A stretch of DNA of 37,010 nt, from the IMG/VR virus record IMGVR_UViG_3300034104_002108, positions 1 to 37,010 of that record, one strand, 5' to 3'. The notes under the pieces are model-generated. The model was not told the DNA's origin. It ran no database searches and saw nothing but the letters and a program-made list of their open reading frames with translations. Positions within the stretch are counted from its first letter, which is position 1. Each line of letters begins with the position of its first letter. Below are positions 22,021 to 36,523 of this stretch, piece after piece. A program made the translations under genes and the position numbers. This DNA is from a virus.

Positions 22021-22563
22021 ATGCTAAGTACAGAGGCTCTAAAGGGCATTCTACGGCCAATCATAGCAGACTCTCTTAATAAGCTCCCGTTTGTCATGCA
22101 AGCGTATATCGGAGCGAATATGGAATTCAGAGGCGCGGCTGATAGAATAGCTCCTTCGACAAGTTCAAAGCTCGCGATTAACTCTGGTACTCTGTTTCGT
22201 AGTTTCTCAAAAGGACAACCCGGAAATGTTTTCAGAGTCTCGCAAAATGGTGATAACTTCGAAGCAGAATACGGCTCGGATTTACCGTATGCAAGAGTGC
22301 AAGAGTTTGGCGGCTTCATTGCAAGCAAAGGCAATATGCATAAGTACTTTTGGGCTAAATTTGCAGAGACTAAACAGCCGTATTTTAAGAATATCGCATT
22401 AAGCGTAAAAAAGAAAGGCGGCGTAAACATACCAGCGCGGCCGTACTTTAATCCTGCAGTCGATAGACTTCGAAATGATACGAAATTTGCAAGCGATATA
22501 AAACAACAAGTCATAATCGGAATACAACAATGGCAAGAGAGTCAGCGGCGATCAAATCCATAG
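22021..22563 (+). CDS. HK97 gp10-like / tail-completion neck protein
   Basis: A 180-residue basic protein. The segment DLPYARVQEFGGFI, with ARPYFNPAVDRLRND near the C-terminus, is the hallmark of HK97 gp10-type and Mu gpG-type morphogenesis proteins, which shape the neck or complete the tail. It follows the connector directly and overlaps the next gene by 34 bases. The length is normal for the family. Confidence 0.75.
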   Translation: MLSTEALKGILRPIIADSLNKLPFVMQAYIGANMEFRGAADRIAPSTSSKLAINSGTLFRSFSKGQPGNVFRVSQNGDNFEAEYGSDLPYARVQEFGGFIASKGNMHKYFWAKFAETKQPYFKNIALSVKKKGGVNIPARPYFNPAVDRLRNDTKFASDIKQQVIIGIQQWQESQRRSNP

Positions 22564-22994
22564 CAGATAGACTTCGCACAATGAGCGGGGTCAAAGTCTA
22601 TGACCAAGTAATGCTAGATAAATGGAATACTTATCAGTTCCCTTTTGTCGGTGTTTTGTCAGGTGCTGACTCTCGCGAGGTTATTGGACTTGAGGATGAT
22701 TCGGCTTTTGCAAATAAAGGCACGCTTGATATCTATTTGCTAGTCGGAGTGCAAGTAAAAAAGAATAGCACGGCGGGAAAAGCTAATTTGAGAGAAGCTC
22801 TTGCGGATTTATGCGAGGCAATCGAGAATAAGCTCACAAACTACAAGCCCGATGTCTATGAGTCCGATTATGAAAGGACGTTTTTTGCGCCAGTTCACTT
22901 TATCGACGCGCAAGCAGTCACATTCAATGACGATGAAACGAAAGGCATATCGTTTATGACTTTTAGAACGGTATATTACAGAGGAGATGTATGA
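22530..22994 (+). CDS. Tail terminator-like protein
   Basis: A 154-residue protein following the neck gene, the usual place of lambda gpU-like terminators. The pattern fits: an N-terminal helix (SAAIKSIADRLRTMSG), strands (VKVYDQVM, PFVGVLSGA, TLDIYLLVGVQVK), a long helix (AGKANLREALADLCEAIENKL) and a final strand segment (GISFMTFRTVYYRGDV). It would cap the tail tube and join it to the head. It overlaps the gp10-like gene by 34 bases and the glycosyltransferase gene by 4. Confidence 0.68.
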   Translation: MARESAAIKSIADRLRTMSGVKVYDQVMLDKWNTYQFPFVGVLSGADSREVIGLEDDSAFANKGTLDIYLLVGVQVKKNSTAGKANLREALADLCEAIENKLTNYKPDVYESDYERTFFAPVHFIDAQAVTFNDDETKGISFMTFRTVYYRGDV

Positions 22995-34379: not shown

Positions 34380-35273
34380 ATGAGACTAATCACACAAACA
34401 GGCGGGATGCAAGTAAACGGGCTGAATGTCCTAATCTACGGCGATCCCGGAATCGGCAAGACCACACTCGCGAATACCGCGCCAAATCCAATTGTATTGG
34501 ACTTCGACCGAGGGCTGCATAGATCCTCACTGCTTAAGAATGGCTTGCAGTTCGAGTCATGGCAAGACTTGCTAAATAACAAGGCCGAGCTTGATAGCAT
34601 CCTAGCCAAGCATGATACGATCATTATCGATACGGCGGGCACTGTTATTGAGCTTATGCAAATGCACCTTACTATCAATAACCCCGGACTTCTTCGCAAT
34701 ACGATCAAGCTATGGGGCGAAACAAAGCGAACATTCCAAGAGTTTTTTACGCCTCTTAAGCTTAGCGGTAAAAATGTAGTTTTCATAGCACACGCAAAAG
34801 AGAAAGAAGAAGGAGATATGCGAATTAAGAGGCCATTGATACCAGGCGCAAGTTATGACTTACTTATGCAGTCATGCGACCTTGTAGGGTACTATACAAC
34901 GCAAGGCAATAAGAGAGTATTGACCTTTGACCTTAGCGATTCAATCGTAGCCAAGAACTGCGCGGAGATTGCACCCGTTCATGTCGACGGCTTGCACTCT
35001 ATGACTACTTGCCTTGCTGATATCTTAGAACATACCAAATCGGCAATATCGAGACGCTCCAAAGAGCAAGAGGCTGCAATCGCACTCGTATCAGAGTGGA
35101 GCGAAAAGGCAAAAGCCGCAAAGGATGCTAATAAGTTTGTCTCTGATCTTAGCAAAGCAGGCTTAGAGGATGCTTTGAAGCGCGCGGTATGGGCTTCAGT
35201 TGTGACTACATTCGGCGAACGTGGCTTGCAATGGAATAAAGAAAGCGGTAAGTTTGAAGAGGTGGTGAAATGA
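34380..35273 (+). CDS. Sak4-like RecA-fold ATPase (AAA_24)
   Basis: A 297-residue protein with AAAGGAG before its ATG. Walker A is GDPGIGKTT (21-29), followed by VLDFDRGLHRSS, Walker B DTIIIDTAG (about 79-87) and VVFIAHAKEKEEGD (about 134-147), where the His is typical of AAA_24. This fits phage Sak4, which binds single-stranded DNA and promotes annealing with SSB help. The C-terminal extension (about 225-297) is helical. With the SSB-like protein (8511) and RecB-like nuclease (169) it makes a recombination set if the genome is closed. Confidence 0.82.
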   Translation: MRLITQTGGMQVNGLNVLIYGDPGIGKTTLANTAPNPIVLDFDRGLHRSSLLKNGLQFESWQDLLNNKAELDSILAKHDTIIIDTAGTVIELMQMHLTINNPGLLRNTIKLWGETKRTFQEFFTPLKLSGKNVVFIAHAKEKEEGDMRIKRPLIPGASYDLLMQSCDLVGYYTTQGNKRVLTFDLSDSIVAKNCAEIAPVHVDGLHSMTTCLADILEHTKSAISRRSKEQEAAIALVSEWSEKAKAAKDANKFVSDLSKAGLEDALKRAVWASVVTTFGERGLQWNKESGKFEEVVK

Positions 35274-35958: not shown

Positions 35959-36163
35959 GCAACAAACGGCAGTGCAATGGTTAATTTGTAGATTATTAGA
36001 AGGCATACCTTTGACGCTATCATTGAGTAACGAAGCCGAGCAAATGGAAAAAGAGCAGATTGAGGATGCATTTGATATTGGTTACGAAGCTTCGGAGTTT
36101 GGCAATTTATTGAACAAAGGCAAACAATATTACAAACAAACCTACGGAGGCGACCATGAGTAA
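35951..36163 (+). CDS. Small orphan phage protein, paralog 1
   Basis: A 70-residue protein from ATG 35951 (8-base overlap with the preceding gene). The plan is: a short WL helix (TAVQWLICRLLEG), a middle with MEKEQIEDAFDIGYEA, and an end GKQYYKQTYGGDHE. This EWL...MEKEQI.DA...G...YY..TYG pattern occurs in many small Bacteroidota phage proteins as I recall them. The genes at 36516 and 36746 are relatives. Its last codons lie in the 29-bp direct repeat. Confidence 0.65.
   Translation: MSKQQTAVQWLICRLLEGIPLTLSLSNEAEQMEKEQIEDAFDIGYEASEFGNLLNKGKQYYKQTYGGDHE
36135..36163 (+). repeat. 29-bp direct repeat, left copy
   Basis: Identical to 36495-36523, exactly 360 bases away. It encodes the QTYGGDHE end of one gene and at the same time CGGAGG plus ATGAGTAA, the ribosome binding site and start of a following frame. 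At this copy the following frame stops after nine codons. Confidence 0.95.
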
Positions 36164-36182
36164 GCAAACGGCGTATTGTTGG

Positions 36183-36269
36183 TAACGTTTGGCGGCTTGG
36201 CGAAGGCTGCCTAACGGAAAGTTCAAATTTCGCAGAATGTTTATGGCAGCTTTTGCCAAACCGCTGTTA
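36183..36269 (+). other. attC-like hairpin element
   Basis: An imperfect palindrome bounded by TAAC (36183-36186) and GTTA (36266-36269). The main arms, 36197-36211 and 36245-36259, match at 13 of 15 positions, and the outer part pairs with unpaired bases. The overall plan recalls integron attC sites and intergenic hairpins of Bacteroidota, but the canonical GTTRRRY/RYYYAAC core is not matched. The gap 36164-36313 otherwise holds no gene. Confidence 0.55.
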
Positions 36270-36313
36270 TGTGCTGGGCGGTTTATCAGCACTAAATTAA
36301 ATTTGAAACCGAA

Positions 36314-36523
36314 ATGAGCATACTTGAAATAATTGGAGCATTAACCATAGGTATAATTGCCATTGTTTTGTTGTATAAACTGTATAGAAAAATATTTGGT
36401 TATAGTTGGAATAGTTGTCCAAACGACCACGATACAATGGCAAGATACGGGGCTTCTAAATGCGACAAATGTGGTCAGAATTATCTGAATTACCAACAAA
36501 CCTACGGAGGCGACCATGAGTAA
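36314..36523 (+). CDS. Membrane protein with zinc-ribbon-like end (cassette gene)
   Basis: A 69-residue protein carried between the two 29-bp repeats. A membrane helix (about 3-22, ILEIIGALTIGIIAIVLLY) is followed by a basic RKIF and a Cys-rich part (WNSCPNDHDT, SKCDKCGQNY), which could be a one-sided zinc ribbon. The last residues QTYGGDHE come from the repeat and not from the original gene, so its natural C-terminus was replaced at integration. No family was recognised. Confidence 0.6.
   Translation: MSILEIIGALTIGIIAIVLLYKLYRKIFGYSWNSCPNDHDTMARYGASKCDKCGQNYLNYQQTYGGDHE
36495..36523 (+). repeat. 29-bp direct repeat, right copy
   Basis: The second copy of 36135-36163. Here the CGGAGG and ATG drive the real gene at 36516, while the other frame ends the cassette gene. 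Confidence 0.95.

Follow-up and report, generated by a model that had tools for sequence, protein, structure and literature searches.

The 360-bp unit in the variable region of the window (the whole 37,010-bp virus record analysed here) is best explained as a single cassette of a phage-resident, integron-like system, parked in a small phage and later trimmed by recombination between gene linkers, a reading to which we assign a probability of roughly four in five. Integrons are known as platforms by which bacteria capture genes; those described in phages to date resemble borrowed fragments. A wider reading, which we consider likely, is that phages, probably of Bacteroidota, own a distinct class of integron, in which a short Xer-like integrase gene is preceded by an attI site and cassettes with a hairpin at the 5′ end face the integrase; small and mostly unknown genes would be exchanged among unrelated phages, with stray cassettes reaching phages that have no integrase. 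The contigs behind the array and integrase comparisons are metagenomic. Coordinates are collected in Table 1.

Table 1. Features of the insert and its surroundings in the window.
Feature	Position	Strand	Details
Sak4-like ssDNA annealing protein	34380..35273	+	phrog_124, E 1.3e-45; just ahead of the variable region
Upstream small phage gene	35951..36163	+	MSKQQTAVQWLIC...YYKQTYGGDHE, then stop; 3′ end within linker copy 1
Linker copy 1	36129..36163	+	35 bp; RBS GGAGG and ATGAGTAA; recurs ahead of unrelated genes in relatives
9-codon remnant	36156..36185	+	MSKQTAYCW, then stop (ATGAGTAAGCAAACGGCGTATTGTTGGTAA); MSKQTA-type phage gene start; stop from TAA of the attC-like site
attC-like site	36183..36269	+	TAAC 36183-36186; left arm 36192-36211; right arm 36245-36264; GTTA 36266-36269
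Conserved cassette leader	36266..36313	+	GTTATGTGCTGGGCGGTTTATCAGCAC...; small hairpin 36271-36276/36287-36292, both arms changing together in the L002 and L110 variants
Cassette gene, 69 aa	36314..36523	+	cassette-derived to KCDKCG; C-terminus (at least NYQQTYGGDHE) from the linker region
Linker copy 2	36489..36523	+	gives the next gene its RBS and start
Next phage gene, 77 aa	36516..36749	+	MSKTAMQTLRQ..., intact; 29 related loci found in viral contigs

The window encodes a primase/helicase, terminase, portal, head proteins, and the Sak4-like annealing protein, a candidate engine of short-linker recombination. In a near relative (contig L004, ~94-96% identical to the window over the best aligned stretches), DNA matching the window's end runs on into DNA matching its start, so that the genome in this record is probably circular or permuted. 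The relative has the cassette in the same position, which indicates that the cassette was inherited. The insert is bounded by two identical 29-bp copies (36135-36163 and 36495-36523), part of a 35-bp direct repeat that matches at 34/35 positions with a spacing of 360, far above the chance expectation for a 2.5-kb region. The repeat contains GGAGG and ATGAGTAA, and it encloses the attC-like hairpin and a 69-codon gene. The main elements of the preliminary description are thus present, namely a 29-bp duplication holding a ribosome binding site and ATG, a remnant of nine codons and a stop, and a TAAC...GTTA hairpin, with a 20-bp stem between the two motifs.

How the repeat arose is clarified by relatives of the window. 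The linker 22-mer was found in 17 stretches of viral contigs, preceded by MSKQTAVEW-type genes, membrane proteins, or no gene at all, with about ten different gene contents in all, and mean identity upstream of the next gene (12 loci) rises from 0.29-0.34 beyond -30 to 0.76 at -15..0 and 0.98 at the start codon. Cassette-less relatives had been suggested as a check, and contig L030 provides one, with the same upstream gene directly joined to the same downstream gene. On this sequence comparison the repeat is a gene linker belonging to the phage itself (gene end, RBS, and next start) that joins numerous small, unrelated genes in related phages, and it is best interpreted as a mark of short-homology recombination rather than as a cassette signature; the repeat follows from the linker being a shared joint of exchangeable genes. 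The proposal that cassette insertion had produced the 29-bp duplication therefore falls, since relatives have unrelated genes enclosed by this linker, a pattern that had been named in advance as favouring homologous recombination. Modular phage linkers that support short-homology exchange are alike in having a short conserved RBS/start linker, exchangeable genes, and a Sak4-like protein nearby; they account for the repeat, but not for the hairpin or the cassette family.

Accordingly, the earlier view of a 360-base foreign unit stands for the hairpin and gene and fails for the repeats, which are phage DNA; judged from sequence, the foreign part runs from about 36172/36183 to about 36480. Its left border lies at the start of an MSKQTA-type gene, and the remnant's Trp keeps the same register as in the MSKQTAVEW genes of relatives. 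To the base, the border is ambiguous, with TATTGTTGG suiting the phage MSKQTA gene and an upstream-cassette tail alike. An exact-match search for an uninterrupted MSKQTAYCW gene returned only L035, which is the same contig as L004. In L049 and L067 a cassette likewise lies directly after an MSKQTA-type start, making three phages with a cassette that begins directly after an M(S)xKQTA-type gene start when the window (36156-36182) is counted; these starts may be a preferred off-target site, or the pattern may reflect the mere abundance of such genes. The AAACCGCTGTT of M(S)xKQTA-type genes looks like a hairpin right arm.

The window's insert belongs to a family with a fixed layout, consisting of an attC hairpin at the 5′ end, a leader, a small ORF, and a tail at the 3′ end, arranged in tandem in large phages. 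The 16-mer GTTATGTGCTGGGCGG gave 98 matching stretches in viral contigs, a minority of them coding or chance matches as judged by eye, and ~80 viral contigs combine the 16-mer core with an element recognisable by eye. True matches are flanked by an attC-like hairpin, a leader running to ...AAACGAAATG, one small ORF, and the tail TAGCCTTGCACATAAC, a motif found 57 times in the fetched loci and 0 times in the reversed control. Leader and tail are near-constant and the ORFs unrelated. The cassette ends form inverted repeats that vary jointly, with GTTACCTGC accompanying GCAGGTAAC in L002 and L110. When the five bases after GTTA are compared with the tail before the next TAAC, the match averages 4.05/5 and is perfect in 129/198 cases, compared with 1.93 for the upstream tail and 1.82 when shuffled (maximum 2.07 of 2000). 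Each cassette's two ends thus match each other, as expected, from sequence, of an excised circle.

The product of the window's cassette gene shows, by eye, a hydrophobic stretch at the N-terminus as well as Cys residues, and it had no match in Pfam or PHROG. The gene also occurs with its native tail in L049/L302, and at 56% identity, outside any cassette, in L303. The homologues end in KCDKCGSEL (L302) and KCGNKL (L303), while the window copy ends in KCDKCGQNYLNYQQTYGGDHE, its last residues encoded by the repeat, which bears out the earlier suggestion of a new C-terminus. These comparisons indicate that the cassette tail (TAGCCTTGCAGCTAAC in L049) has been lost from the window copy, whose C-terminus is now encoded by the linker. 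The order of hairpin, leader, and gene makes the insert one unit of the same polarity as the phage arrays, without the tail. Classical cassette insertion at G^TT was rejected, since the order of hairpin and ORF is wrong and no tail is present in the window. A Pfam scan of 70 cassette proteins gave three families with one member each, one being a restriction-alleviation protein. In L053, L060, L091, and L116, a DNA methyltransferase-like ORF seems to continue across both hairpin and leader (..MCWAVDN..).

Folding and covariation support the hairpin as a structured site. A 125-nt fragment containing the stem folds with z-scores of -3.2 (sense) and -3.1 (antisense), and 0/200 shuffles folded as well; single-strand folding, proposed earlier as a check, thus exceeds shuffles on both strands. 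Across 53 diverse sites, 96.6% of stem positions are paired, with 338 double-change cells against at most 109 in slid controls, and the R′′/L′′/L′/R′ hairpins appear conserved in structure rather than in sequence, as in integrons. The window's core contains GTTA and reads GTTATGT, not GTTRRRY, with no conserved extrahelical base visible by eye. The sole Rfam match, to DicF, was dismissed as chance (20 of 48 bits). Wobble pairs indicate folding of the sense strand, at 384 G.T against 31 C.A with symmetric detection, replacing an earlier ratio of 373:16 that was biased by a scan crediting G.T. Sense-strand folding would also suit an RNA function, a point against reading the hairpin as a site of cassette recombination. 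Pairwise, similar hairpins are co-inherited with the downstream leader and not the upstream tail (212 pairs vs 7), which places each hairpin 5′ of its own gene; this test overturned the idea that hairpins on both sides vary freely around one ORF. In many small-phage copies the hairpin is truncated, at several junctions, so illegitimate joining occurs too. In sum, the hairpin has the behaviour expected of an attC-like cassette site, in agreement with the mobile cassette system first suggested for it. A weaker TAAC/GTTA-like inverted repeat at 22525-22683 of the window is probably chance or a terminator.

The recombinase for these cassettes is likely encoded by the phages themselves, judging from the genes beside the arrays. 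Seven of 28 cassette-bearing records contain one short tyrosine recombinase gene each, six of them within ~8 kb of a cassette. There are 444 integrase relatives in viral contigs, and in the best 80 of these 444, which were fetched and analysed, the integrase is a Xer-like protein of 265-277 aa at the 3′ end of cassette arrays. With our own hairpin scan (TAAC..GTTA, stem score at least 12 of 14), which is not calibrated on classical integrons and was applied to loci chosen by sequence patterns, sense hairpins number 247 upstream of the integrase (353 kb) and 8 downstream (497 kb), counts that include near-duplicate loci and so are not independent. Antisense hairpins number 12 upstream and 2 downstream, and the reversed-sequence control gave 3 and 2. 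All 46 integrase loci with at least 4 kb of upstream sequence hold at least one sense hairpin. Arrays end at an attI-like site, TAACTATTATATATA.., ~45 bp ahead of the start of the integrase gene, which lies on the cassettes' strand; the site was located upstream of the integrase in 76/80 loci. Contigs identical over 850 bp of attI and integrase (L233/L234/L236, L250/L251, and L238/L242) diverge exactly at TAAC, as does the pair L244/L245 (99.5% over attI and integrase), and such sharp divergence beside the integrase would be expected from the exchange of cassettes at attI. Among 29 viral contigs with the integrase, about half also have a terminase gene scoring above cut-off. The integrase falls below every NCBIfam cut-off, the nearest models being XerA, XerC, XerD, and TIGR02249, the last matching in a split alignment at 157-159 bits (cut-off 265), and an alignment with the IntI of L166 shows that the IntI-specific segment is absent. 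Only distant integrases (below 60% identity) occur in an annotated phage collection. No PF00589 gene was found in the L004 contig, so recent integrase action there is only a possibility. In L071 and L113 a small KVIRISE gene follows the tail and attI-like sequence, with no integrase gene adjoining.

In the mechanism we propose, the phage recombinase would excise cassettes as circles, in keeping with each cassette's matching 5′ and 3′ ends, and would join them, through the folded sense strand, at TA^AC in attI or in a different attC. Off-target integrase action, or else illegitimate joining, would have brought a cassette to a small gene of the window phage's ancestor, beside the MSKQTA start of that gene. 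Recombination between RBS/start linkers, probably by the Sak4-type annealing protein, would then have trimmed the tail and left a linker copy on each side. We infer both the integrase catalysis of cassette recombination and the part played by the Sak4-like protein at the linkers, the former from sequence patterns.

A bacterial origin was suggested in the preliminary description, and no chromosomal source of the cassette family was found in 84,980 species genomes searched by leader 20-mer. The four contigs that matched include one (L146) unlike a member around the leader and one, among the other three, carrying a phage terminase. This scarcity, together with a likely phage-encoded recombinase, argues against a source in Bacteroidota chromosomes. 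TIGR02249 scores above cut-off in 1/395 class genomes (L277, G150:C40), where the scan detected no attC-like site across the 20 kb retrieved, and chromosomal IntI of Bacteroidota was rejected as the source because it is rare and lacks such a site there. The closest genome relatives of the phage integrase are Bacteroidota chromosomal Xer-type enzymes (open frames of ~290-560 aa, E to 3e-87), mostly longer than the phage protein by an extra N-terminal part, with no hairpin array within 1.5 kb. Capture by the phage of a classical integron cassette from a Bacteroidota chromosome, mobilised by a bacterial IntI, is distinctly improbable in light of these counts and of a linked integrase that is phage-borne and without the IntI-specific segment, although the site has attC-like architecture and, according to Qi et al. 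(2023; PMC9892861), IntI1 recombines attC2 of Polaribacter phage P12002L. In P12002L our scan, run at a loose threshold, detects sites with this layout together with hits at the level of chance.

Homologous recombination alone is unlikely to suffice. Here the hairpins would be RNA elements (terminators or leaders), with genes shuffling through conserved leaders and linkers and no site-specific recombinase; the linkers clearly do recombine, the sense strand folds, and hairpins are truncated at several junctions, yet the exact breakpoint at TAAC beside the integrase, the matching ends of each cassette, and the one-sided clustering of arrays at the integrase all speak against it. A perfect direct repeat on both sides of an element would also suit a transposon-like insertion with the 29-35 bp repeat as target-site duplication, which we find scarcely credible: the linker borders unrelated genes, many relatives have it as a single copy, no transposase lies inside the 360 bp, and other copies of the cassette family have no such repeat. 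Target-site duplication was rejected on the same ground, the repeat being a motif shared elsewhere.

The favoured phage-resident system resembles integrons (IntI/attI/attC; IntI4 structure 2A3V) in its tyrosine recombinase gene with attI at the 5′ side, its tandem single-gene cassettes with complementary ends, and its hairpin sites, whose R and L arms are conserved in structure and not in sequence. It differs in the short, Xer-like integrase without the IntI-specific segment, in the folding of the sense strand, in hairpins placed 5′ of their own ORF where integron attC sites lie 3′, and in ORFs that face attI and the integrase, whereas those of integrons read away from attI. By sequence layout, the phage arrays read from attI outward have the geometry of an integron with its genes reversed. 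Reverse integrons, as defined in Treponema denticola (PMC7691350), likewise have integrase and cassettes transcribed in one direction, but their cassettes lie downstream of the integrase, whereas the phage integrase follows the array. Integrons and attC clusters have been reported in phages (PMC9892861), and the integrase-less clusters share attC sites and small-gene cassettes with the present system; the portion of that report considered here describes no integrase or attI of the present phage type. Searches of the open literature turned up no description of an integrase that phages encode together with attI and reversed arrays. If true, such a platform, carried by phages and with hundreds of integrase homologues among viral contigs, would open a new path for genes to move between unrelated phages, and genes in the arrays would become candidates for accessory or counter-defence roles. 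The reversed polarity, the sense-strand folding, and the lack of the IntI-specific segment in the recombinase would then be directly relevant to how cassette recombination on single strands originated from Xer enzymes.

Two huge phage records, L002 (LR756502, 642 kb) and L003 (LR745206, 635 kb), carry cassettes and have no PF00589 match. Acinetobacter plasmids of ~330 kb (NZ_CP104336 and others) encode a tyrosine recombinase 50% identical to the phage integrase over residues 67-265.
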